From a virus, in IMG/VR virus record IMGVR_UViG_3300023108_001185, positions 1 through 25,110 of that record: DNA of 25,110 nt, one strand, 5' to 3'. Within the stretch, counting starts at the first letter, position 1. Each line of letters starts with the position of its first letter. The notes below the pieces were generated by a model. That model searched no databases, was not told where the DNA came from, and saw only the letters and a list, made by a program, of their open reading frames with translations. Of the stretch, positions 2,689 to 19,358 are shown in pieces. The position numbers and the translations under genes are program-made.

Positions 2689-3954
2689 ATGTTTTTATCT
2701 GAACAGTTAGAGAAGAAGTGGGAACCTGTTCTTAAGCACGAGAGCCTGCAAGAAATTGCAGATCCGTACAAGAGATCGGTAACTGCTGTAGTTCTCGAAA
2801 ATCAGGAAAAGGCTCTGCGTGAAGAAAAAGCAGCCCTTTTCGAAGCAACACACGCGAACGCCACTGGCGCTTCAATCGACAACTATGATCCTATTCTTAT
2901 CAGCCTGGTTAGACGTGCTCTTCCCAACCTGATGGCTTATGACGTAGCTGGCGTACAGCCTATGACTGGTCCTACTGGTTTGATCTTCGCTATGAAGTCA
3001 CACTATGCTAGCCAGACTGGTACTGAAGCCCTGTTTAACGAAGCCGATACTGACTTCTCTGGTACTGGTACTCACGCAGGTTCTAACCCTGTTGACGGTA
3101 CTTATACTACTGGTACTGGTGTAACTACTTCAACTGCTGAAGGCTTTGGCGACTCAACTACTCTGAATGAAATGGCATTCAGCATTGAGAAGACCACTGT
3201 AACTGCTAAGTCACGTGCTCTGAAAGCAGAATACACCGTTGAACTTGCCCAGGACCTGAAAGCGATTCATGGTCTTGACGCAGAAAGCGAACTGAGCAAC
3301 ATTCTTTCTCAGGAAATTCTCGCTGAAATCAACCGTGAAGTTATCCGTACTATCTACAAGGTAGCGAAGACTGGTGCTGCTTCTACAGCAACTCCTGGTA
3401 CTTTCGACCTTGACGTTGATAGCAACGGTCGTTGGTCTGTAGAACGCTTCAAAGGCCTCATGTTCAACATTGAGCGTGATGCCAACGTAATTGCACAAGA
3501 CACTCGTAGGGGCAAAGGTAACTTCATCATTTGTTCTTCTGACGTAGCTTCTGCACTTGCCATGTCCGGCGTACTTGACTACAGCTCAGGCTTGAGCAAC
3601 AACTTGCAGGTTGATGATACAGGCAACACTTTTGCTGGTGTACTGAACGGTCGTTACAGAGTATACATCGACCCTTACAGTGCTAACACTGGTGCAGCTT
3701 CTCAGTTCTACGTAGCTGGATACAAAGGCACTAGCCCTTATGACGCAGGTCTTTTCTACTGTCCGTATGTTCCTTTACAGATGGTCAGAGCGATTGATCC
3801 AAGCACATTCCAGCCAAAGATTGGCTTCAAGACTCGTTACGGCATGATTGCTAACCCATACGTAACTCAGTCTGATGGCACTACTGACGCTGATACATTC
3901 ACAGCAGATCGTAACCAGTATTATCGTTCAGTTAAGGTTACTAACCTGATGTAA
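2689..3954 (+). CDS. 23: Major capsid protein gp23
   Basis: This 421-residue HK97-fold capsid protein has clear T4-like gp23 features: DPILISLVRRALPNLMAYD (about 67-85), then VQPMTGPTGLIFAMKS, and a C-terminal segment IGFKTRYGMIANP. The N-terminal 52 residues are a helical propeptide ending in ALFE-ATHANATG. Leu50-Phe-Glu52 fits the L/I-x-E cleavage rule of gp21 proteases, so maturation after Glu52 is predicted. It is shorter than T4 gp23 (521 residues), as in marine relatives. A late promoter precedes it and a strong terminator follows. Codon use is visibly richer in C-ending codons (AAC, ATC, TTC) than in downstream genes, fitting high expression. Confidence 0.98.
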   Translation: MFLSEQLEKKWEPVLKHESLQEIADPYKRSVTAVVLENQEKALREEKAALFEATHANATGASIDNYDPILISLVRRALPNLMAYDVAGVQPMTGPTGLIFAMKSHYASQTGTEALFNEADTDFSGTGTHAGSNPVDGTYTTGTGVTTSTAEGFGDSTTLNEMAFSIEKTTVTAKSRALKAEYTVELAQDLKAIHGLDAESELSNILSQEILAEINREVIRTIYKVAKTGAASTATPGTFDLDVDSNGRWSVERFKGLMFNIERDANVIAQDTRRGKGNFIICSSDVASALAMSGVLDYSSGLSNNLQVDDTGNTFAGVLNGRYRVYIDPYSANTGAASQFYVAGYKGTSPYDAGLFYCPYVPLQMVRAIDPSTFQPKIGFKTRYGMIANPYVTQSDGTTDADTFTADRNQYYRSVKVTNLM

Positions 3955-3985
3955 TAAAAAGAATCCCAATAGGGACATTTTTGAG

Positions 3986-4011
3986 GGGGCTACAATGTAG
4001 CCCCTTTTTTT
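3986..4011 (+). terminator. Intrinsic terminator after gp23
   Basis: The stem GGGGCTAC (3986-3993) pairs perfectly with GTAGCCCC (3997-4004) across a 3-base loop and is followed by seven T residues (4005-4011). This is a textbook rho-independent terminator. It isolates the capsid transcript from the downstream haem-copper gene unit. Confidence 0.95.
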
Positions 4012-4030
4012 ATCTATACTATATAATGTG

Positions 4031-4038
4031 TATAAATA
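4031..4038 (+). promoter_or_regulatory. T4-type late promoter box for the haem-copper gene pair
   Basis: TATAAATA lies 20 bases after the terminator T-run and about 65 bases upstream of the first start at 4103. With the terminator it makes the two accessory genes an independent late transcription unit. The box occurs within AATGTGTATAAATAGTG. Confidence 0.8.
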
Positions 4039-4102
4039 GTGTAAATAGCACGTTGAGATAACGTCCTGTTTTTCCTTTATGGACTACAACGGAGAAACCG
4101 AT

Positions 4103-5386
4103 ATGAAGAAATTTTTATTTCTTATGTTGCTACCTACCTTAGCAACAGCACAAACATACACAGATGATGTAGCAGAAATCATCAATAATAACTGTGTAAC
4201 TTGCCACCGTCCTGGTGGTGTAGGCCCAATGAGTTTTGAAACCTATGAGCAGGTAAGACCCTGGGCTCCTCTTATTCAAATGCGAGTAGCAAACAGAGAG
4301 ATGCCTCCCTATGCGTATGACCACGGCATAGGCATTCAAGACCTTGAGGGCGATTGGCGACTCTCCCAAGAACAGATTGACACTGTAGTAGCATGGGTTA
4401 ATGCAGGTTCGCCTTACGGTGATCCTGACAGAGTAGTACAACTACCCGAAATGCCTGACCCAAATGAATGGAAGTTTACACCTTTATTCGGACAACCTAC
4501 AGTGATTGTAGCATCAAGTCCGTATGATATTCCTGCAAACGGAAATGACTTGTGGAGTAAGGAGATTGTTGATTCAGGCGTATCAGAAAGTCAATGTATC
4601 AAAGCAGTACAAGTAAAACCCAGAGGTGATGCCGCAGCAGTAGTACACCACGCTAACAGCAGCTTTCTCACAGAACAAGGCAGAGAAGGTATGTTGACTG
4701 AATATGCTATGGGCAAGTGGGGAGAGATTGTACCTGAAGGAGTTTGTCGTACATTCCCAGCAAACGCAAAAGTATCGTGGGACATTCATATGTTCCCAGG
4801 TGGAGTAGGCGCAACTGCTGAAGGTGCGATGATTAAAGATAATGTAGTGGAGATTGGCATTTGGTTCCACGATGAAGAAACAAGCAAAGACTTACGATTC
4901 AAGCAAGACTTGTCATTGTATCGTTTAGGACAGCAAGATGATATTGCTATTCCTCCTCACGGTTACTATATGACTCAAGGGTTTCATAGTTTCGACCACC
5001 CTGTACGTTTAGATAGTTTTCAGCCACACGGGCACTTGAGAATGAACGCAGCATCACTTGAAATTTTCTACCCAGAAACAGGTAGAACAGAACCTGTAAG
5101 TCAAATTTCAAATTGGTCAGCAACTTGGCATCATAGTCACTTGTATGCACAAGATGTTGCACCGTTAATTCCGGCCGGAGCAGTCATAGTTCTTAAACAG
5201 TGGTATGACAATACGGCTAATAACCCAAACAATCCTGACCCTGATATGTGGGTAGTAGGAGGCAGTCGTACAGGTGATGAGATGACTCACGCTTGGTTAG
5301 CCATTACGCACTTGGATGATGAGGAATATGAACGATTAGTGGAGGAGAGAAATGCAAAAACTATTATTGCTACTGCTAACGATTAG
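4103..5386 (+). CDS. Exported c-type cytochrome / type II copper monooxygenase-like protein, copy 1
   Basis: This 427-residue protein begins with a signal peptide, MKKFLFLMLLPTLATA, with an AxA cleavage site before Q17. The start at ATG 4103 is chosen because GGAGA (4091-4095) lies seven bases upstream and the signal peptide begins there; an in-frame ATG at 4079 would add eight polar residues. A c-type haem motif CVTCH (31-35) is followed by the possible axial Met67 in NREMPPY. The rest resembles the PHM/DBH-type copper monooxygenase core. Candidate copper ligands are His182-His183 (VVHHAN), His229 (WDIHMF), His309 and His311 (QPHGHLRM) and Met394 (TGDEMTHAW). A conserved DNTANNPNNPDP stretch follows the second copper site. 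Bacterial cytochrome/copper-monooxygenase fusions share this layout. The substrate is unknown. Haem attachment would need the host periplasmic maturation machinery. Confidence 0.85.
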   Translation: MKKFLFLMLLPTLATAQTYTDDVAEIINNNCVTCHRPGGVGPMSFETYEQVRPWAPLIQMRVANREMPPYAYDHGIGIQDLEGDWRLSQEQIDTVVAWVNAGSPYGDPDRVVQLPEMPDPNEWKFTPLFGQPTVIVASSPYDIPANGNDLWSKEIVDSGVSESQCIKAVQVKPRGDAAAVVHHANSSFLTEQGREGMLTEYAMGKWGEIVPEGVCRTFPANAKVSWDIHMFPGGVGATAEGAMIKDNVVEIGIWFHDEETSKDLRFKQDLSLYRLGQQDDIAIPPHGYYMTQGFHSFDHPVRLDSFQPHGHLRMNAASLEIFYPETGRTEPVSQISNWSATWHHSHLYAQDVAPLIPAGAVIVLKQWYDNTANNPNNPDPDMWVVGGSRTGDEMTHAWLAITHLDDEEYERLVEERNAKTIIATAND

Positions 5387-6587
5387 CACAGCAGCGTTTG
5401 CTCACGATGACATTGCTATAGATTATGCAGAAAATGTAGCACCTATTCTTATTGAGCAATGTCAAATGTGTCACAGAGAAAATGGCATTGCACCATGGGC
5501 TATGAGCAATTATCAAATTGTTCAAGGATTTGCTCCTGCAATGAGAGAGGCTATCGTTGAGAAACGTATGCCTCCTGGGCAAATTAATCCAAAGTATGCT
5601 GATGTTATTGTTAATCATAGAACACTAAGCCACACAGAAGAAGAAACACTGTTGGCTTGGATAGACGCAGGCGCACCTGTTACTGGTGATAGAGACCCAT
5701 TGACTGAAACGGTTTACTCTACGAGCGAATGGGTAAACGGTGAACCAGATATGATTATAGAAGTGCCTCCTCAAGAGATACCTGCTGTCGGTACTCTCGG
5801 TCCTAATGCTATTCCTTATCGTTATACCAGTGTAGATTTGGGATTGACAGAGGACAAGTGGTTACGTGGTTCAGAATTTCTACCATCAGAACCTACTGTT
5901 ATGCATCATATGCTCAACACTGTATCACTACCAGGTGAACGCAACATGAACTTGCTTGGCACATCAGGCGAAGGACAAGGCAACATGGACTACGCACAAA
6001 TCAGTGCTTATGTTCCTGGAGGCACACCTGACTTTTATGATGAGAACACTGGCGGTTTGCTACGTGCAGGCAGTATTGTAAACTTACAACTACACTATAC
6101 ACCAGACGGCACAGCACGTACTGACAAAGCACGTATCGGACTATACTTCCACGATGAAGGTGTAGTACCAGAAGAAAGAATGGCAGGAGACTGTGCGTGT
6201 ATCTTTCCTAATACATGGACAAACATTCCTCCATACGATCCAAACTTTGTGCAGACAGCAGAAATAACATTGCAAAACGACATAAACTTGCATACGTTCT
6301 TACCCCATATGCACTTTAGAGGCAAGAGTATGAAAGCAACTGCATATTATCCTGACGGCACTTGGGAAGAACTTATTGACATCCCACGTTATGAGTATGC
6401 TTGGCAACTGTCATACACATGGAAAGAACCTAAGTTTATACCTAAAGGAACACGATTGTTTGTTGAGGGCGCATTTGACAATTCAGCAGACAATCCAATG
6501 AATCCTGACCCAAGCAGAGAAGTACCTTGGGGACAGATGAGCGAGGATGAAATGTTCTTTGGAGCATTTACTTGGAAGAACTTGTAA
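5352..6587 (+). CDS. Exported c-type cytochrome / type II copper monooxygenase-like protein, copy 2
   Basis: This 411-residue divergent paralogue of the preceding gene overlaps it by 35 bases. Its own GGAGG (5341-5345) sits six bases before the ATG, and a signal peptide MQKLLLLLLTISTAAFA follows. The haem motif is CQMCH (37-41), and Met73 in KRMPPG is the axial ligand candidate. Copper ligand candidates are His185-His186 (VMHHML), His248 (NLQLHYTP), His319 and His321 (LPHMHFRGK) and Met401 (SEDEMFFG). These fit the HH, H, HxH and M ligand pattern of peptidylglycine monooxygenase. The C-terminal DNSADNPMNPDP, then VPWG, is close to bacterial homologues. Copy 2 is nearer the canonical family than copy 1. 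The two products may form a heterodimer or act on different substrates; that is inference. Confidence 0.87.
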   Translation: MQKLLLLLLTISTAAFAHDDIAIDYAENVAPILIEQCQMCHRENGIAPWAMSNYQIVQGFAPAMREAIVEKRMPPGQINPKYADVIVNHRTLSHTEEETLLAWIDAGAPVTGDRDPLTETVYSTSEWVNGEPDMIIEVPPQEIPAVGTLGPNAIPYRYTSVDLGLTEDKWLRGSEFLPSEPTVMHHMLNTVSLPGERNMNLLGTSGEGQGNMDYAQISAYVPGGTPDFYDENTGGLLRAGSIVNLQLHYTPDGTARTDKARIGLYFHDEGVVPEERMAGDCACIFPNTWTNIPPYDPNFVQTAEITLQNDINLHTFLPHMHFRGKSMKATAYYPDGTWEELIDIPRYEYAWQLSYTWKEPKFIPKGTRLFVEGAFDNSADNPMNPDPSREVPWGQMSEDEMFFGAFTWKNL

Positions 6588-6593
6588 GTGTAC

Positions 6594-6687
6594 GGTGGCC
6601 TTCCTTTATTTCTGACATTTTGTATGATCCTTATCGTTGTCGATACGGCCATACACGTAATGATTCAGATGTATTTCGAAGGCCACC
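6594..6687 (+). other. Long structured hairpin (30 bp in 94 nt), candidate RNA element
   Basis: The outer stem GGTGGCCTTC (6594-6603) pairs perfectly with GAAGGCCACC (6678-6687). Inside it, 6611-6615 pairs with 6665-6669, 6616-6619 with 6659-6662, 6621-6626 with 6650-6655 and 6632-6636 with 6641-6645. The loop is TTGT. The whole is one long rod with short internal loops and an AT bulge at 6663-6664. It begins seven bases after the stop of the second copper gene. No T-run follows, so it is not a standard intrinsic terminator. It may be a mRNA 3' stabiliser, a processed small RNA or a DNA-level structure. Confidence 0.6.
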
Positions 6688-6700
6688 CTGCATTTAATGC

Positions 6701-6729
6701 TTGACAAGTCTTAAAATATCGTTTATTAT
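6701..6729 (+). promoter_or_regulatory. Near-consensus sigma70 promoter with adjoining palindrome
   Basis: TTGACA (6701-6706), a 17-base spacer and TATTAT (6724-6729) form a near-perfect host-type promoter. Transcription should start near 6736. The palindrome GCATTTAATGC (6690-6700) abuts the -35 box and could be an operator. The transcript would begin almost at the hairpin at 6739-6765 and read the small ORF at 6798. Confidence 0.75.
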
Positions 6730-6738
6730 ATATAGTAC

Positions 6739-6765
6739 GGAAAGTAGCACTATACGTTACTTTCC
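6739..6765 (+). other. Hairpin at the predicted 5' end of the 6701 promoter transcript
   Basis: GGAAAGTA (6739-6746) pairs perfectly with TACTTTCC (6758-6765) across an 11-base loop. It begins about three bases after the predicted transcription start, so it would sit at the very 5' end of the RNA. A stability or regulatory role is possible. No T-run follows. Confidence 0.55.
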
Positions 6766-6797
6766 TATACACACCAGTATACAACCAACGATTAAAA

Positions 6798-6932
6798 ATG
6801 CCCACAAGGCAAGGACTTGAAAAGAAAATGAGAAAGCGCGACTACACCTTAGCAGCAGTACAGTCTTTAACAACCGTATTTTTAGCATTTGCTCTACCAG
6901 CAGTTATTATATATGCTAACAGCGGTTTCTAA
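6798..6932 (+). CDS. Small single-pass membrane protein (44 aa)
   Basis: An ATG at 6798 opens a 44-residue frame ending at TAA 6930-6932. The first 15 residues are strongly basic (RQGLEKKMRKRD). A hydrophobic helix of about 22 residues follows (TLAAVQSLTTVFLAFALPAVIIYA), then a short polar end. This is a positive-inside single-pass membrane layout. A second in-frame ATG at 6828 would give 34 residues. Neither start has a strong ribosome site; AAGGA at 6810-6814 is 13 bases before the second. Its placement behind a sigma70 promoter in an otherwise gene-free stretch supports it. Function is unknown. A small host-membrane effector or a partner of the exported haem-copper proteins are both guesses. 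Confidence 0.5.
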   Translation: MPTRQGLEKKMRKRDYTLAAVQSLTTVFLAFALPAVIIYANSGF

Positions 6933-7007
6933 ATTAGCAATAATTTATATTCTGTTTTGTATCCATTTATCTGTAAACAATGACTTTGTACCTAGACTTA
7001 CAGGTAT

Positions 7008-7015
7008 TATAAATA
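7008..7015 (+). promoter_or_regulatory. T4-type late promoter box upstream of the tail-tube-like gene
   Basis: TATAAATA lies 24 bases before the start at 7040. The stretch 6933-7000 before it is AT-rich, and I see no gene in it. Confidence 0.8.
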
Positions 7016-7039
7016 GTAGATACACACAAGGTAACTACT

Positions 7040-7615
7040 ATGGCATACACCCCCACAGCTAATATATCAGAAGCTACATTTGATGCAGGCAACCCTAGTG
7101 AACTTGATTACTTAAAACCCAATGGGTTTCGTTTTCAGGTTCACAACCTGCCAAATGTTTCTTTCTTTTGTCAATCAGCAAACATACCTGACATTACTTT
7201 AGGTGAAGCTCAGGTACAAACCCCACTAGTAGATTATTTTCAACCAGGTGAAAAACTAACTTTCGGTTTGTTGAATATACGTTTTCTTATTCAGGAAAAC
7301 ATGGCCAATTATTCAGAGTTATATAACTGGCTAAGAGGCATGGGTAATCCTGAAACCACAGAAGAATACACAAACTATTTACAGAAACAACTGTATAGAT
7401 TCCCAGGCAAAAATACAGCAACTACTATTGAAGGATTGTTTAGTGATGCAAGTTTGTTTGTATTAGACTCAAACGACAATCCTTCAATAGAGATAATATT
7501 TCAGGACGCTTTTCCTACAGCATTAAGTGGATTAGATTTTGATTTGACTGACTCAGAGTATTTCATAGGGCTAGCATCATTTAGGTACAGACAGTATAAG
7601 ATAAACTCGTTATAA
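7040..7615 (+). CDS. Tail-tube-fold structural protein (gp19/gp54/gp3-type)
   Basis: This 191-residue protein has the N-terminal pattern NGFRFQVHNLPNVSFFCQS, followed by ANIPDITLGEAQVQTP. This resembles the 'RFQVEI...F.C.SA.LP' opening of T4-like tail tube proteins (gp19, gp54). The C-terminal half, from IEIIFQDAFPTALSGLDFD to the end, also fits a tube-type beta fold. Marine T4-like phages carry a tail completion or tube-initiator gene (gp3 or gp54) between gp23 and uvsY, so the position agrees. I cannot decide between a tube initiator at the baseplate and a tail terminator from sequence alone. It is preceded by a late promoter. Confidence 0.7.
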   Translation: MAYTPTANISEATFDAGNPSELDYLKPNGFRFQVHNLPNVSFFCQSANIPDITLGEAQVQTPLVDYFQPGEKLTFGLLNIRFLIQENMANYSELYNWLRGMGNPETTEEYTNYLQKQLYRFPGKNTATTIEGLFSDASLFVLDSNDNPSIEIIFQDAFPTALSGLDFDLTDSEYFIGLASFRYRQYKINSL

Positions 7616-10069: not shown

Positions 10070-10633
10070 ATGAGTAAAAGTACAGCACATTACATTGACA
10101 ACAAAAAGTTTTTTCAGGCCATGAAGGACTGGAAGGACGAAATCAACGCTGCTGAAGAAGCAGGTAATCCTAAACCTCAGTGTACAAACTACTTGGGCGA
10201 ATGTTTTGTTAAGATCTCAAATCATTTGGCCTATAAGTCTAACTTTGTAAACTATACTTTCCGGGACGAAATGATACTTGACGGCATTGAGAACTGTTTA
10301 CGATATGCTGACCGTTTCAACCCTGAAAAATCCAACAACCCTTTCGCATACTTCACACAGATTACATACTATTCTTTTGTGCGTAGAATTAAGAAAGAGG
10401 CCAAACAATCTGAAACTAAACTCAGATATTTACAAAGCATTGACCTCCAACAACTACTAGATGAGATCGAAGGTGACTCTGGCAACTATGATTATCTGAA
10501 CTGGATACAAGAACAGTTAGATGCAAATGCTAAAGAAAGAGAGGATCTCAATAAAACGGCCACAAAAATGCCAAAAAGGCGGCCAAAATATTTTGACGAA
10601 AAAGATGAAGAAACACTTGACATTGATGTCTAA
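10070..10633 (+). CDS. 55: Late-transcription sigma factor gp55
   Basis: This 187-residue sigma70-family protein would direct host RNA polymerase to TATAAATA late promoters. Its start YIDNKKFFQAMKDWKDEIN aligns with the T4 gp55 opening 'YVNNKELLQAIIDWKTEL'. The region-2 core is present: DEMILDGIENCLRYADRFNP, then NNPFAYFTQITYYSFVRRIKKE (about 65-108). The C-terminus is acidic (DEKDEETLDIDV), as in T4 where the end contacts the sliding clamp. This N-terminal match fixes the start despite the lack of a ribosome site. Six late boxes in this window are its likely targets. Confidence 0.93.
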   Translation: MSKSTAHYIDNKKFFQAMKDWKDEINAAEEAGNPKPQCTNYLGECFVKISNHLAYKSNFVNYTFRDEMILDGIENCLRYADRFNPEKSNNPFAYFTQITYYSFVRRIKKEAKQSETKLRYLQSIDLQQLLDEIEGDSGNYDYLNWIQEQLDANAKEREDLNKTATKMPKRRPKYFDEKDEETLDIDV

Positions 10634-10671: not shown

Positions 10672-11559
10672 ATGAAGGTTCGATATTCCGAAATGTTCTA
10701 CTCGTTTCAAGGCGAGGCAGAACTAGCAGGCACACCAACAGTCTGGCTTAGATTTTTCGGCTGTAACTTAGAATGTAACGGCTTCGGCCAAGAACAACCC
10801 ACTGAACCCTCTACATGGAAACTCCCATACAAGGAGTATGACTTGATTGATGTCAAGCGAGTAGAGGATCTTCCTGTATGGGAGTATGGTTGTGACTCAT
10901 CTTATACATGGTCAAAAGAATACAAACACTTGGCCACTGACACTACAATCGAAGGTGCCGCTGACAAACTTGAATCACTCTTGCCACGTGGCAAATTCAC
11001 TCACCCTGATTCTAAACAAGAAAATATGTTGGCTTTCACTGGCGGTGAACCCATGCTACAACAGCGACAGATGAAAGCTATTGTCAATGAGTTTCTTATA
11101 CGTGGCAATGTGCCTAAACTTATTACAGTAGAAACAAATGGCACTAAAAAATTAAACAAAGACTTACAAGACTTTATCAACATATACTTGGCTGACATGG
11201 GTATTCGTTGGCATTGGGCAATCAGCCCTAAACTATGGCACACTGCTGGTGAAGTGAAAGCAGTAGATGTTGACAATTTTATGTCATATATTGAAGGCAC
11301 TCGTAGCACAGGTATTATAAAGTTTGTTTGTAATGGCAGTAAAGAATCATGGCGAGAAGTAGATCACTATGCAGATCAAATTGCCTTTTGGGCTCGCCAC
11401 GCTGACATGAAAAAGCCTGACATATGGATTATGCCTGCAGGCGCAACGAAAGAAGAGCAAGAACAAGTAGCAAACATTTGTAATGTTGCTATGGAAAAAG
11501 GCTACAAGGTAGCTACTCGTAATCATTGTTATGTTTACGGCAATCAGATAGGAACTTAA
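10672..11559 (+). CDS. queE: 7-carboxy-7-deazaguanine synthase QueE with a split Fe-S motif
   Basis: This 295-residue radical SAM enzyme converts 6-carboxytetrahydropterin to 7-carboxy-7-deazaguanine. Family marks are EMFYSFQGEAELAGTPTVWLRFFGC at the N-terminus (residues 7-31, quoted as blocks EMFYSFQGE and TPTVWLRF), AFTGGEPMLQ (SAM site) and VETNGT. The usual CxxxCxxC cluster is split: Cys31 and Cys35 (GCNLECNGF) are followed by an insert, and Cys74 appears in GCDSSYTW, which matches the 'CDTKHTW' end of the bacterial motif. Similar inserts occur in phage QueE proteins as I recall. A GAGG site (10661-10664) precedes the start. It heads the deazaguanine cluster after gp55. Confidence 0.9.
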   Translation: MKVRYSEMFYSFQGEAELAGTPTVWLRFFGCNLECNGFGQEQPTEPSTWKLPYKEYDLIDVKRVEDLPVWEYGCDSSYTWSKEYKHLATDTTIEGAADKLESLLPRGKFTHPDSKQENMLAFTGGEPMLQQRQMKAIVNEFLIRGNVPKLITVETNGTKKLNKDLQDFINIYLADMGIRWHWAISPKLWHTAGEVKAVDVDNFMSYIEGTRSTGIIKFVCNGSKESWREVDHYADQIAFWARHADMKKPDIWIMPAGATKEEQEQVANICNVAMEKGYKVATRNHCYVYGNQIGT

Positions 11560-11560
11560 T

Positions 11561-12019
11561 ATGAATATAGGCAAAAAACATTTTGATGAACTCCCTGAGT
11601 ATGACGATACAATCCCATATGATTGGAATCAAATAGATAATATTGTCACTGATATTGCTGACCGTATCAAAAGGCGACAGGTAAAGTTTGACAACATATT
11701 AGGATTGTCCAGAGGCGGACTTATCCCAGGTGTGATGTTGTCACATAAACTGAATGTAAACTTTGTCCCTATTGTGTGGCAAACAAGAGACGGCACTATA
11801 AAGGACAAAGTTACACTGTCTAAATATAATGATGGAGCGAATCTCATAGTAGATGACTTGATTGATTCGGGCGAAACATTTTTTCAAGTTAAAAAATATG
11901 CACCATTGGCCAAGTATTGTGCGTTGTTTAACAAACAATATTCAATAGCGCTTGACTATTGGGGAACTACTTTATATAATGAGCATAGATGGTTAGACTT
12001 TCCTTGGGAGAAACAATGA
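11561..12019 (+). CDS. Purine-type phosphoribosyltransferase
   Basis: This 152-residue type I phosphoribosyltransferase has the PRPP-binding motif LIVDDLIDSGET (95-106) and the upstream loop ILGLSRGGLIPG (about 46-57). It most resembles bacterial xanthine/guanine (Gpt-like) enzymes, which turn a free purine base plus PRPP into the nucleotide. Between queE and folE it could recycle guanine displaced from DNA by the transglycosylase, or feed GTP to FolE. Both roles are inference. Its stop overlaps the next start (ATGA). Confidence 0.85.
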   Translation: MNIGKKHFDELPEYDDTIPYDWNQIDNIVTDIADRIKRRQVKFDNILGLSRGGLIPGVMLSHKLNVNFVPIVWQTRDGTIKDKVTLSKYNDGANLIVDDLIDSGETFFQVKKYAPLAKYCALFNKQYSIALDYWGTTLYNEHRWLDFPWEKQ

Positions 12020-12201
12020 GAACAAGTGAGATACGTAAAGAAACGAACTGGAACATGGGTGAATCAGATGTTCTATACATTGTAGATTTGTATGATGATG
12101 GGGTGCTGGTAGAATCACGTAAACTACCTAACAAAAGCATACACTATGCTAAAGACGTATCAGAAAACTGGGATAATGGAATCATAAAAGATGATAAGTG
12201 A
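12016..12201 (+). CDS. Small hypothetical protein (61 aa)
   Basis: The start at 12016 overlaps the previous stop as ATGA and follows GGGAG (12006-12010). A longer in-frame start at 11989 lies inside the previous gene without a ribosome site. The protein (MRTSEIRKETNWNMGESDV to KDDK) has two strand-like stretches, VLYIVDLYDDGVLVESR and HYAKDVSENW. I do not recognise the family. It overlaps folE by 11 bases. Confidence 0.6.
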   Translation: MRTSEIRKETNWNMGESDVLYIVDLYDDGVLVESRKLPNKSIHYAKDVSENWDNGIIKDDK

Positions 12202-12874
12202 TATAATTAAAACACGCCTCAAGTCAGCAGGTTTGAGGTATCACGCATCTGATAATATTTCAGGTGTGTTATATGCTGGCGACAAAGACGCAATCATAAA
12301 CGAACTGACTGAAAAGTTTGAGGGTGTGCTTGACTCTCTGATTATTGACAGAGAAACAGACCCTAACTCACAAGGCACAGCAAGGCGACTTGCTAAGATG
12401 TATGTGAACGAACTCATGGCTGGTCGCTATGACAAAATGCCTAATGCCACAGCGTTTCCTAATCATGTAGATGATGGCTACGAAGGTATGCTTGTTGTTC
12501 GTAGCGAGCTGAAGTCAATGTGTTCACATCACCATCAGCCTGTTAACGGTGTAGCATACATAGGTATCATAGCTGCCGATAAACTTATTGGACTGTCTAA
12601 ATATACACGTATAGCACAGTGGTGTGCAAGACGAGGTACACTACAAGAAGAACTGTGCAATGATATTGCCCGTGAGATTATGAAAGCAACAGGTAGTGAG
12701 AATGTAGGTGTTTATATTCAGGCAACACATGGTTGCTGTGAGAACAGAGGCATTATGGCACACAGCTCAATGACACAGACCACGGTACTCAAAGGCAGTT
12801 TCTTTAATAACCCTGACACTAAAAAAGAATTCTTTGACAACATCAAACTACAACAGGAATATTCTTGTAGATGA
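12191..12874 (+). CDS. folE: GTP cyclohydrolase I (FolE)
   Basis: This 227-residue enzyme opens GTP to dihydroneopterin triphosphate, the first step toward deazaguanine (and folate). The active-site block SMCSHHHQPVNG gives zinc ligands Cys111 and His114, and the third is Cys182 or Cys183 in ATHGCCENRG. The substrate-binding stretch KLIGLSKYTRIAQWCARRGTLQE follows (quoted blocks IGLSKYTRI and RRGTLQEEL). DPNSQGTARRLAKMY (57-71) is the family's N-terminal helix. Length is normal. It overlaps neighbours on both sides (11 and 4 bases), placing it in the same translational unit as the queE and dpdA genes. Confidence 0.96.
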   Translation: MISDIIKTRLKSAGLRYHASDNISGVLYAGDKDAIINELTEKFEGVLDSLIIDRETDPNSQGTARRLAKMYVNELMAGRYDKMPNATAFPNHVDDGYEGMLVVRSELKSMCSHHHQPVNGVAYIGIIAADKLIGLSKYTRIAQWCARRGTLQEELCNDIAREIMKATGSENVGVYIQATHGCCENRGIMAHSSMTQTTVLKGSFFNNPDTKKEFFDNIKLQQEYSCR

Positions 12875-13410
12875 TAAAACCTAATCAACCACAGTTTGTA
12901 GTAGACCTTGAAACACTAAGCACTCATGCCAATGGGTGTATTGTGTCTATTGGTGCTGTCAAATTCTCACTTGAAGAAGGAATACTTGAGGAGTTTTTTA
13001 TAAACATTGATCCTCAAACTTGTAAAGATGTAGGACTACACTTTGACAAGAATACAATTGAGTGGTGGACAAAACAAAGTAAAGAGGCACGGGATGCTTG
13101 GATGAAAGACCCTGTACCTCTCACAGAAGCACTACATAAGTTTGCTGACTTTTATGAAGTGGGCAATCCTATATGGGGCTTCGGTGCTAACTTTGATATA
13201 AGTATTTTAGAATCAGCATATTATGCTATTGGGTACGACAAGGATAAAGAATACGGGCAACACTTGCCCTGGAAGTTTTGGGACATATACTGCCTACGCA
13301 CATTAGCAAATGTGTTAGGTAAAAAACTACAGAAAACAGGCGTGAATCACAATGCGTTACATGACGCTATTGCTGAGGCCAAACTTATTATAGAGATATT
13401 GAAATCGTGA
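12871..13410 (+). CDS. dexA: DexA-like 3'-5' exonuclease (DEDDh)
   Basis: This 179-residue RNase-H-fold exonuclease has VDLETL (Asp12, Glu14), Asp109 in GANFDISIL, and His160 with Asp165 in NHNALHDAIAEA, a DEDDh arrangement. NTIEWWTKQSKEA (61-73) closely matches 'STIEWWKNQSPEA' of T4 DexA and is also typical of the Rv2179c-like exonuclease family. T4 DexA (227 residues) degrades host DNA and is dispensable. The gene overlaps folE as ATGA and the transglycosylase as GTGA. Confidence 0.85.
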   Translation: MIKPNQPQFVVDLETLSTHANGCIVSIGAVKFSLEEGILEEFFINIDPQTCKDVGLHFDKNTIEWWTKQSKEARDAWMKDPVPLTEALHKFADFYEVGNPIWGFGANFDISILESAYYAIGYDKDKEYGQHLPWKFWDIYCLRTLANVLGKKLQKTGVNHNALHDAIAEAKLIIEILKS

Positions 13411-14777
13411 AATTAGAATATGTAGGTTCAGGCACCTCTTACATGAGGTTATCAAATCCATCTTTACATGACCGACCAGAGATTATAGCTTTGGTTAATA
13501 AAATGTTTCATCACTTCTTTGATGACCAACCAGGACATACTTTCTCACTGCTTTATAACGCATGGGCAGAAAGTAACTTTGGTCCTCGTCTAAGTAACTT
13601 CAAAGAGTCTATGCACCAACTGCATGCTGACTCAGGCGGACTACAGATGGTGACACTCGCTCACAAAATACCTAAGGGTGTTGATAAAAATACACTGCGA
13701 GAAGAAGTGTATCAGGATCAGAGTAAATGGGCAGATGTTGGTATGTGTTTTGACGAGATTCCTGTCATTACAACAGGAGCATCAGACAGAAACGATACCA
13801 CAAACAGATACTTTGACAGAGCAAATCGTCACAAGTATGCTAAACAGACAGGCGAGAACATCAAGCGACAGATTGAAGTGTTCAAACAAAACGGTAGCAA
13901 CTGTAAGCCGTTTATGATTTGTCAGGGAGGTGACCTCGAAACATATCTTGAATGGATTGATACTATACTTGAAACAGTGCCTAAAGAAGATCACAATCGC
14001 ATAGGCGGTGTGGCAATGGGTGGTGCAGCATTAGGTACCGGAAGACTTGAAGATATACAAAAAGCATTCTTCGCAAGTCAGGTTCCTGTCCGTGACGAAA
14101 CAGGCAAGCTACACTTACACATTCTGGGAGTAGGTGCTGTGTCACGCATGATACCTTATCTTATCTTCCTGCAAAATGGTATGTATGGTGATGTTCACAT
14201 ATCATATGACTCTACAACTCACACACGAGCAGTAGAAACAGGACTGTATTATATGTTGGGTGAGATTGTTAATGGACACTTTGTTGCGGGTGAAGGCAAG
14301 ACGTTGAAGTATGATAGAGCAAGAGCATCTGACGCTCCTCTCATAGGTGAAGCACGAGCATTTGTTCCTAACGTAGAATATGAGACTATGTATAATGACA
14401 TAAAAAAATACTGGCCTCTGTCAATGACACTTGAAAAGTTCCATGAAGTATTGAACACACCTTCTATACCATATCTTGAAACATATGGACAGTTGGATGA
14501 ATGGTACGAAGGCAGAACGTCTATGTGTTTAGCAAGTATTAAAAACTTTATGTATCAGATAGAAAAGTATACACATGACAAAAAGGCATTGATTAAACTT
14601 GCAGATGAAAAGTATCCTAAAGGAGCAGCGGCCGCATTGTATGAAGTAAAAGACGTAGAATCATTCAATGATTGGATGAGAGCGTGGTCACCTATATTCA
14701 AAAAAGGTAAACAGTCACAGAGTATTTCACACGTAGCACCTTTGGAAAAACCATCATTGGAGGCCTTGTTTGGATAG
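13407..14777 (+). CDS. dpdA: DpdA-like DNA 7-deazaguanine transglycosylase
   Basis: This 456-residue protein of the tRNA-guanine transglycosylase superfamily has HADSGGLQM (Asp75), FMICQGG (169-175), IGGVAMGGAALGTG (199-212) and LGVGAVSRMIPYL. The last motif leads to SYDSTTHTR, where Asp268 sits at the position of the TGT nucleophile ('FDCVxPTR'). The CxCxxC zinc site of tRNA enzymes is not visible. Phage DpdA proteins swap guanine for a 7-deazaguanine in DNA, which blocks many restriction enzymes. FolE, QueE and QueD in the same operon support a DNA target. The start is GTG, set by a 4-base overlap. The exact base inserted is unknown. Confidence 0.88.
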   Translation: MKLEYVGSGTSYMRLSNPSLHDRPEIIALVNKMFHHFFDDQPGHTFSLLYNAWAESNFGPRLSNFKESMHQLHADSGGLQMVTLAHKIPKGVDKNTLREEVYQDQSKWADVGMCFDEIPVITTGASDRNDTTNRYFDRANRHKYAKQTGENIKRQIEVFKQNGSNCKPFMICQGGDLETYLEWIDTILETVPKEDHNRIGGVAMGGAALGTGRLEDIQKAFFASQVPVRDETGKLHLHILGVGAVSRMIPYLIFLQNGMYGDVHISYDSTTHTRAVETGLYYMLGEIVNGHFVAGEGKTLKYDRARASDAPLIGEARAFVPNVEYETMYNDIKKYWPLSMTLEKFHEVLNTPSIPYLETYGQLDEWYEGRTSMCLASIKNFMYQIEKYTHDKKALIKLADEKYPKGAAAALYEVKDVESFNDWMRAWSPIFKKGKQSQSISHVAPLEKPSLEALFG

Positions 14778-17975: not shown

Positions 17976-18912
17976 GAAGGTATTAGTCACAGGTAGTAAA
18001 GGTTTCATTGGGCATCAGACTTGTTTACAGTTAGAAGAACAAGGCTTTGAAGTATTCGGTATAGACTGGGCGAGTGATTTAACAAAGCCAGGTATTACTG
18101 TAGACTTTGCTTCGGATACTACAAGGACTATTCTTAAAAGTAACAACATCAAGACTGTTATTCACTTTGCGGCAGACCATGAAGTAGGTCGTAGCGTTGA
18201 AGAACCATCAGTGTTTTACAATAACAATATTGTGAGCAGTATCAGGTTCCTTGACAAGTGTATACAGGCAGGTGTTGAGAACTTTATCTTCAGTAGCTCA
18301 AGCAGTGTATACGGTGACAACCCAACCTTTCCTACAACGGAGAGAAACAGAAAAGATCCTATGTCACCTTATGGTCGTACAAAACATTTCTTTGAGGAAA
18401 TACTCAAGGACTATGAAAACGCATACGGTATCAAAACATTGTCACTTAGATACTTCAATGCGGCAGGTGCTGATGTATTGAACAGACACGGTTACGAACA
18501 AGAAACGTATTCACATCTTGTTCCTATTCTTGCAAGGTGTTTCGGCAAAGGCGAACCCTTTACAGTATTTGGTAATGATTATAATACACCTGATGGTACT
18601 TGTATACGAGACTACACACACGTTTGCGATATTGCACAGGCACACATTGATGCTATACATTATTTAGATCACAATGGCATCTATCAAGTATTTAATATTG
18701 GTAAAGGTAATGGAGAGAGTGTATTGGAAGTGATAGATGCTTTCAGAAAATATACTGGTAAGGATATTGAAGTGAACTATAGTGACAGGAGAGAAGGCGA
18801 CCCAGCAAAAACATTTGCAGCTATTGAACTTGCTATGAATGAACTACAATGGGTTCCTAAGTATACACTTGCTGACATTGTAGAACACGCATACAAGTGG
18901 GAGAACAGATGA
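17968..18912 (+). CDS. galE: UDP-glucose 4-epimerase-like NAD-dependent epimerase
   Basis: This 314-residue extended short-chain dehydrogenase has the NAD site TGSKGFIG (8-15), VIHFAADHEVGRSVEEP, the SSSSSVYG strand and the catalytic Tyr135-xxx-Lys139 (SPYGRTK). LRYFNAAGAD, GTCIRDYTHVCDIAQAH and FNIGKGNGESV follow, all GalE marks. It would interconvert UDP-glucose and UDP-galactose, or a related sugar pair. It overlaps the glycosyltransferase by eight bases and queD by four. Confidence 0.92.
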   Translation: MNKKVLVTGSKGFIGHQTCLQLEEQGFEVFGIDWASDLTKPGITVDFASDTTRTILKSNNIKTVIHFAADHEVGRSVEEPSVFYNNNIVSSIRFLDKCIQAGVENFIFSSSSSVYGDNPTFPTTERNRKDPMSPYGRTKHFFEEILKDYENAYGIKTLSLRYFNAAGADVLNRHGYEQETYSHLVPILARCFGKGEPFTVFGNDYNTPDGTCIRDYTHVCDIAQAHIDAIHYLDHNGIYQVFNIGKGNGESVLEVIDAFRKYTGKDIEVNYSDRREGDPAKTFAAIELAMNELQWVPKYTLADIVEHAYKWENR

Positions 18913-19358
18913 AACATTATTCAACGAAAACGTATGGGCATGAACGTGGGTTGTCGTGTGTATTCCGACAGCCTAATGCCACGCACAGCCATTGTTCACT
19001 GCTACACGGTTATTCATTAGGATTTAGTTTTAAGTTTGGTACTGAATGCCTTGATGATAAAAATTGGGTAGTAGACTTTGGTGGCTTGAAAGAACTAAAG
19101 ACATGGTTAGAAGATAACTTTGACCATACTTTGGTTGTAGACAGGGACGACCCAGAGATACAGGAACTTATGTCATTACAAGACAAAGGACTTGCTAAGG
19201 TTGTCATACTACCTGGCGTTGGCTGTGAGAAGTTTGCAGAAGAAGCATTTTGGTATGCTGATTCTGTTGTAAAGAATCTGACAAATGGTAGATGTTATTG
19301 TGTATCGTGTGAAGTAAGGGAACACGGTGCTAACTCTGCTATATACGAGCGTGAATGA
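18909..19358 (+). CDS. queD: 6-carboxytetrahydropterin synthase QueD-like
   Basis: This 149-residue PTPS-family protein would convert dihydroneopterin triphosphate to 6-carboxytetrahydropterin, the substrate of QueE. HSHCSLLHGYSLGFSF carries Cys29 and His33, with Tyr35 where most members have His (HGH). NWVVDFGGLKELK and DNFDHTL match the family. His11 (TYGHERG) and His28 are further metal-ligand candidates. The HGY form is, as I recall, typical of a QueD branch in phages and alphaproteobacteria. The start at 18909 overlaps galE as ATGA after GGGAG; a GTG at 18897 is in frame but less likely. Confidence 0.88.
   Translation: MKHYSTKTYGHERGLSCVFRQPNATHSHCSLLHGYSLGFSFKFGTECLDDKNWVVDFGGLKELKTWLEDNFDHTLVVDRDDPEIQELMSLQDKGLAKVVILPGVGCEKFAEEAFWYADSVVKNLTNGRCYCVSCEVREHGANSAIYERE

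Follow-up and report, generated by a model that had tools for sequence, protein, structure and literature searches.

A pair of overlapping genes between the capsid and tail genes

The stretch of DNA analysed here, which we call the window, spans positions 1 to 25,110 of the 25,110-base virus record IMGVR_UViG_3300023108_001185 from IMG/VR. It encodes the T4-type core genes gp21 (prohead protease), gp22 (scaffold), gp23, a tail tube-like protein, UvsY and a UvsW-like helicase, and comes from a T4-like, probably marine phage. As a first-pass annotation of this DNA had described, two overlapping open reading frames, referred to as cuA and cuB, lie between the terminator that follows gp23 and the tail gene:

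2689..3954, + strand: gp23, major capsid protein (PF07068, E = 1e-140; phrog_138), the upstream anchor of the insertion site
3983..4007, + strand: intrinsic terminator after gp23 (11-pair stem and T tail), separating the capsid gene from the module
4031..4038, + strand: T4-type late promoter -10 box TATAAATA, 72 bp upstream of cuA
4103..5386, + strand: cuA, 427 aa, predicted exported cytochrome c / copper type II monooxygenase-like protein; signal peptide ~1-16, haem-c domain ~17-105, copper core ~120-405
4193..4207, + strand: cuA haem-c attachment motif CVTCH, residues 31-35, with distal Met M67 (M67PP); kept in 99-100% of phage homologues
5341..5347, + strand: Shine-Dalgarno sequence GGAGGAG for cuB, inside the end of cuA and before the cuB ATG
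5352..6587, + strand: cuB, 411 aa, second predicted exported cytochrome c / copper type II monooxygenase-like protein; signal peptide ~1-17, haem-c domain ~18-112, copper core ~130-411
5460..5474, + strand: cuB haem-c attachment motif CQMCH, residues 37-41, with distal Met M73 (M73PP); kept in 98-100% of phage homologues
7040..7615, + strand: tail gene, tail tube-like (phrog_45, E = 8e-35), the downstream anchor of the insertion site

The cuA frame opens at 4079, and the ATG at 4103 is favoured as its start by a GGAGA at 4091 and by the signal peptide. The two genes overlap by 35 nt and are likely translationally coupled; at 28-29% identity, their products are as strongly diverged as initially claimed. 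The late promoter that had been assigned to the pair is likewise borne out by its conservation, with TATAAATA found 34-97 bp upstream of cuA in 21/21 contigs that share the gp23 context. Within the window this octamer occurs six times where 1.85 occurrences are expected, always on the + strand and before or at gene starts. The late sigma factor, a gp55-like gene, is presumably encoded at 10070-10633, a position that we take from synteny with phage Melnitz.

The capsid protein of the window is 69-70% identical to those of Methylophilales phage Melnitz EXVC043M and Pelagibacter phage HTVC008M, both of which have the same gene order as the window phage (gp21-gp22-gp23, tail gene, uvsY, helicase) but lack cuA and cuB between gp23 and the tail gene. 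Because the order is shared and the pair is not, cuA-cuB represents an insertion in an otherwise collinear block. Downstream of cuB, roughly 450 bp without a clear gene (6590-7040) contain a perfect inverted repeat, GGTGGCCTTC...GAAGGCCACC. Elsewhere in the window, at 10672-14777 and 18897-19358, QueE-, FolE-, tRNA-guanine transglycosylase/DpdA-like and QueD-like genes, recognized by eye only, probably form a 7-deazaguanine DNA modification pathway.

Predicted fold and conservation of the metal ligands

For each protein, an AlphaFold model based on homologues from phages and bacteria (pLDDT 87 and pTM 0.85 for cuA; pLDDT 79 and pTM 0.74 for cuB) predicts a two-domain double jelly-roll core, the copper core on which the initial reading of these genes had hinged. 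The best PDB match of both models by Foldseek is human dopamine beta-hydroxylase (DBH), with rat peptidylglycine monooxygenase (PHM) next (E = 5e-12 and 5e-11, respectively, for cuA; 6e-10 and 3e-9 for cuB); taken together, the Foldseek matches to DBH and PHM range from E = 5e-12 to 1e-8. VIA Z scores are 18.1 (cuA) and 17.6 (cuB) to DBH (4zel) and 18.0 and 16.5 to PHM (1sdw/1phm), compared to 8.3 and 7.3 for the next unrelated fold. The matches in this second tier, PNGase F and viral scaffold or capsid proteins, are expected since PHM shares the double jelly-roll capsid fold (PMC8812541). That the proteins are themselves double jelly-roll capsid proteins is ruled out by the gap in Z and by the invariant ligands described below.

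At the sequence level, a profile led by cuB homologues (A6) matches human DBH at E = 1.3e-5 and places the HH, H and HxH motifs on DBH histidines; searches of the PDB with a cuA-led profile (A5) and a cuB-only profile (A7) gave no match to DBH or PHM. Pfam family Cu2_monoox_C matches cuB below its cut-off (E = 0.0024, 17.8 bits; cut-off 23), and no copper family in Pfam matched cuA. A Cytochrome_CBB3 match (E = 3.6e-5, 24.4 bits) also stays below its cut-off of 27, cuA falls below the Pfam cut-offs for cytochrome c, and neither protein has a PHROG or an NCBIfam match.

The putative copper ligands follow the pattern HH182/183-H229-H309xH311-M394 in cuA and HH185/186-H248-H319xH321-M401 in cuB. 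Across 36 aligned phage sequences of both copies, the invariant columns include both haem cysteines and the haem histidine, the MPP, and the HH, H, HxH and M of the copper pattern. Since the columns that remain invariant between copies with 28% identity include exactly the haem and copper ligands, these motifs are not there by chance. After deduplication, which left 73 cuA and 59 cuB rows, conservation of each ligand is 97-100%, and the ligands are also invariant in all bacterial cuA-type rows that have the column and in the closest bacterial relatives of cuB. Judged by alignment, the predicted CuH site (H182/H183/H229 in cuA; H185/H186/H248 in cuB) is invariant and falls on DBH histidines, and the predicted CuM site (H309/H311/M394; H319/H321/M401) is likewise invariant, with the DBH alignment stopping short of the Met. 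The fold match, combined with this column-by-column alignment of HH, H and HxH to DBH, suggests that the ligands would cluster at two copper sites in each protein. The CxxCH motif and the downstream distal Met are invariant in both exported proteins, whose signal peptides were identified by eye. Thus, signal peptide, haem motif with MPP, and HH/H/HxH/M pattern are all present in each protein at the residues first reported; the conserved CxxCH and MPP support the haem-c fusion, and the predicted-structure matches (Z 16-18) and ligand columns support the PHM/DBH-type assignment. Median dN/dS values of 0.10 for cuA (78 pairs) and 0.11 for cuB (113 pairs) indicate that both genes are under strong purifying selection.

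Distribution in phages and relatives in bacteria

A single scan of IMG/VR for each gene returned 244 relatives of cuA and 114 of cuB, of which we kept the best 80 of each. The flanks of these kept relatives (best 80 of 244 and best 80 of 114) fall into about ten gene contexts. These include the gp23-cuA-cuB-tail type of the window, contigs of 340 kb, 230 kb and 74 kb with distant gp23, and contexts with tail fibre, Hsp20, lysozyme or spanin neighbours. The adjacency of gp23 and cuA recurs in 21 contigs, all with the late promoter, and that of cuB, tail gene and uvsY in many. Such recurrence bears directly on the possibility that the pair reflects an assembly chimera or cellular contamination of viral bins, to which the abundance of relatives in bacterial genomes and one contig that may join two phage types lend some appearance. 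We consider this explanation barely credible: many independent contigs carry the arrangement, chimeric assembly is excluded because 21/21 gp23-context contigs have TATAAATA before cuA and because the ligands are conserved and both genes are under purifying selection, and phage cuB forms a clade apart from bacteria. A phage origin, as originally proposed, is therefore supported. The contig in question, IMGVR_UViG_3300047562_001438, carries the same cuA-cuB pair with a lysozyme-type flank on its left and a T4 tail-uvsY flank on its right; this junction at the module may stem from recombination or from chimeric assembly. Among 50,697 phage records in INPHARED, tblastn found no match to the pair.

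The range of contexts also bears on two suggestions in the first-pass annotation. Some phages carry cuA without cuB, and the pair is therefore not an obligate heteromer. A virion-borne oxidase acting at adsorption or entry, to which the position of the genes between capsid and tail genes could point, appears very improbable, given that the signal peptides direct the proteins out of the cytoplasm, where virions are assembled, and that in other phages the module lies outside the structural clusters.

Further redox and metal-binding proteins accompany the module in some phages. Some 20 loci, spread over several contexts, encode an additional exported cytochrome c of 122 aa (Cytochrom_C, 2.9e-7) between cuA and cuB. 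At three loci (L068, L070 and L081), cuB is split into two exported proteins, one with a redoxin domain and haem c and the other with the copper core; a SOUL haem protein (2.6e-44) lies between the halves in L068 and L081 (L081:12284-12934), and a CopC copper protein (4.8e-15) follows the split gene in L070 (L070:6804-7214). In L081, the separate redoxin-haem c protein that accompanies the copper core is encoded at 11611-12306. These split forms look like intermediates between the bacterial redoxin-haem-copper form and the phage haem-copper form. Additionally, a 217 kb contig of the same type as the 340 kb phage contig encodes a CHASE2 and adenylate/guanylate cyclase protein two genes downstream of the module (L112:11907-13976).

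In bacteria, a genome scan yielded 242 stretches with relatives, mostly from marine gammaproteobacterial MAGs; the bacterial-source MAGs (L150-L250) bear names such as Pseudohongiella, OM182, SAR86 and Pseudomonadales. Most genomes checked (34 in all) hold 13-40 family members. A strong cuB relative was found in 4/274 genomes drawn across the class, and cuA relatives occur in 38/59 genomes of the family to which one of those four belongs. Bacterial cuA relatives are 65-77% identical to the phage protein, and the nearest bacterial cuB 55-56%. The bacterial cuA genes occur singly or in tandems of up to four beside MFS transporters (labelled by eye), cupins, GMC and PQQ dehydrogenases, and an exported protein. 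The commonest neighbour is an exported protein of ~317 aa (family F1; 52 loci, for example L173:3068-4018) with no Pfam match and no homologue among the phage ORFs.

In the tree with bacterial homologues that had been called for, built here as a quick tree for each gene, the cuA of the window falls in an all-phage clade (support 99), with three label changes needed between phage and bacterial cuA, and a long-stemmed branch (96) sets the phage cuB copies apart from the rest. Two MAGs, one assigned to Neomarinimicrobiota (L150) and one to Flavobacteriales (L157), have phage-like cuA genes in genomes with only 1-3 family members, and probably represent phage contigs in bacterial bins. In another bacterial cuB-like clade, the HxH motif of CuM is gone; at L159:995-2731 and similar loci, a redoxin-haem c-copper paralogue in which this motif is replaced by RxN, RxS or RxG lies divergently beside bacterial cuA genes and is possibly their non-catalytic partner.

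The persistence of this bacterial clade despite the loss of HxH, together with the CopC and SOUL neighbours in some phages, would fit a role in copper or haem handling or in redox sensing, in which the proteins sequester copper or pass electrons without catalysis and so limit oxidative or copper stress on the infected cell or on progeny. We regard such a role as unlikely, because practically all phage copies retain the full set of six copper ligands, a pattern expected of catalysis and not of simple binding.

Lysis-gene neighbourhood, proposed role and known systems

Several of the phage contexts place the module beside lysis genes. In one phage group, a lysozyme lies 0.8-1.4 kb upstream and spanins directly downstream; in another, a phrog_2524 protein and a lysozyme follow the module. 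A cell-wall hydrolase endolysin is found 22 bp upstream in two loci (L017 and L018) and 1.3 kb downstream in two others (L080 and L082), and overlapping Rz/Rz1-like spanin genes (phrog_739, phrog_812) come directly after the module at L056:12514-13252 and L081:14033-14882. In 42 records (2.72 Mb), 11/22 lysozyme matches, the 11 being counted by hand, lie within 1.5 kb of the module where 1.54 would be expected. Since the contigs are related, the P value of this enrichment is not a true probability, and the independent placements, of which there are about four, carry more weight. In the phage type of the window itself, no lysis gene adjoins cuA-cuB.

We propose, with a probability of about two in three, that cuA and cuB constitute a late, exported haem-to-copper monooxygenase module that came from marine gammaproteobacteria and works in the host envelope as infection ends. 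The module is made together with capsid and tail proteins, and in other phages with lysis proteins, which suggests this timing and location. Of the roles first put forward, the late periplasmic or lysis-time one gains support, whereas the virion-linked oxidase finds none. A mostly T4-like phage lineage would have taken the genes from marine gammaproteobacteria, after which they would have been exchanged among phages. Each protein would be secreted by Sec, receive haem c from the host maturation system and bind two copper ions. In PHM and DBH, CuH is the entry point for electrons and CuM the site of O2 activation. By analogy, the fused haem may take an electron from the periplasmic cytochrome c pool, with the separate phage cytochrome c as a further carrier in some phages, and hand it to the CuH site (HH+H). 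From there the electron would reach the CuM site (HxH+M), at which O2 would be split and a C-H bond of the substrate hydroxylated. Ascorbate would be replaced as electron source by the fused haem together with the additional phage cytochrome, and the substrate would presumably sit in the periplasm or outer envelope.

The strongest competitor, which we hold to be a real but less probable possibility, is that cuA and cuB are ordinary auxiliary metabolic genes with which the phage boosts periplasmic substrate oxidation by its host, hydroxylation being followed by host GMC and PQQ dehydrogenases, for carbon or energy; nearness to lysis genes would then reflect shared late expression. It agrees with the 65-77% identity of cuA to bacterial enzymes encoded in tandem beside catabolic-looking genes and with the 13-40 paralogues carried by hosts of the family. 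However, genes for metabolic support are usually expressed early or in the middle of infection, a pattern with which a late promoter and recurrent positions in lysis cassettes agree badly; monooxygenases use up electrons rather than provide them; and the phage cuB proteins group in a long-stemmed clade of their own and are without the redoxin domain seen in their nearest bacterial relatives. We slightly favour an envelope-directed or lysis-assisting oxidation over plain metabolic support. More tentatively still, the copper monooxygenase pair, its own cytochrome c and a copper chaperone could form a dedicated oxidative module, made with endolysin and spanins, that oxidizes a component of the host envelope at lysis. 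If so, an oxidative step would stand beside holin, endolysin and spanin in lysis. The conservation of these enzymes under strong purifying selection in about ten contexts of mostly T4-like phages, with electron carriers and a copper chaperone and beside lysis genes, points to a redox step in infection unseen in model phages. The phage pair also gives direct access to a family of enzymes that has expanded in marine gammaproteobacteria, and the bacterial relatives suggest which hosts the carrier phages infect.

The enzyme class is already known, as is the bacterial fusion, which is common in some marine bacteria; what appears to be new is the phage-borne pair. DBH/PHM-type enzymes are best known from animals, and to our knowledge their cytochrome-fused bacterial branch is uncharacterized. 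No copper type II monooxygenase of a phage is known to us, and searches of the open-licence PMC literature yielded none. With the copper type II ascorbate-dependent monooxygenases (DBH 4zel, PHM 1sdw/1phm; PF03712), cuA and cuB share the predicted double jelly-roll core and the HH+H / HxH+M pattern; they differ in being prokaryotic and phage-borne, in their low identity to these enzymes (10-18%) and in having a fused N-terminal haem c in place of free ascorbate. The cytochrome c-copper paralogues of marine gammaproteobacteria have the same domain order and ligands but, unlike cuA and cuB, are chromosomal, numerous in each genome and devoid of a phage late promoter, and the nearest bacterial relatives of cuB retain all ligands but carry an extra N-terminal redoxin-like domain (~575 aa in total) that phage cuB lacks. 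Phage-encoded pmoC (PMC7674155) is a known case of a copper monooxygenase component carried by phages, but it specifies an unrelated membrane subunit of methane monooxygenase, whereas cuA and cuB are predicted to be complete, soluble, exported enzymes with their own haem.
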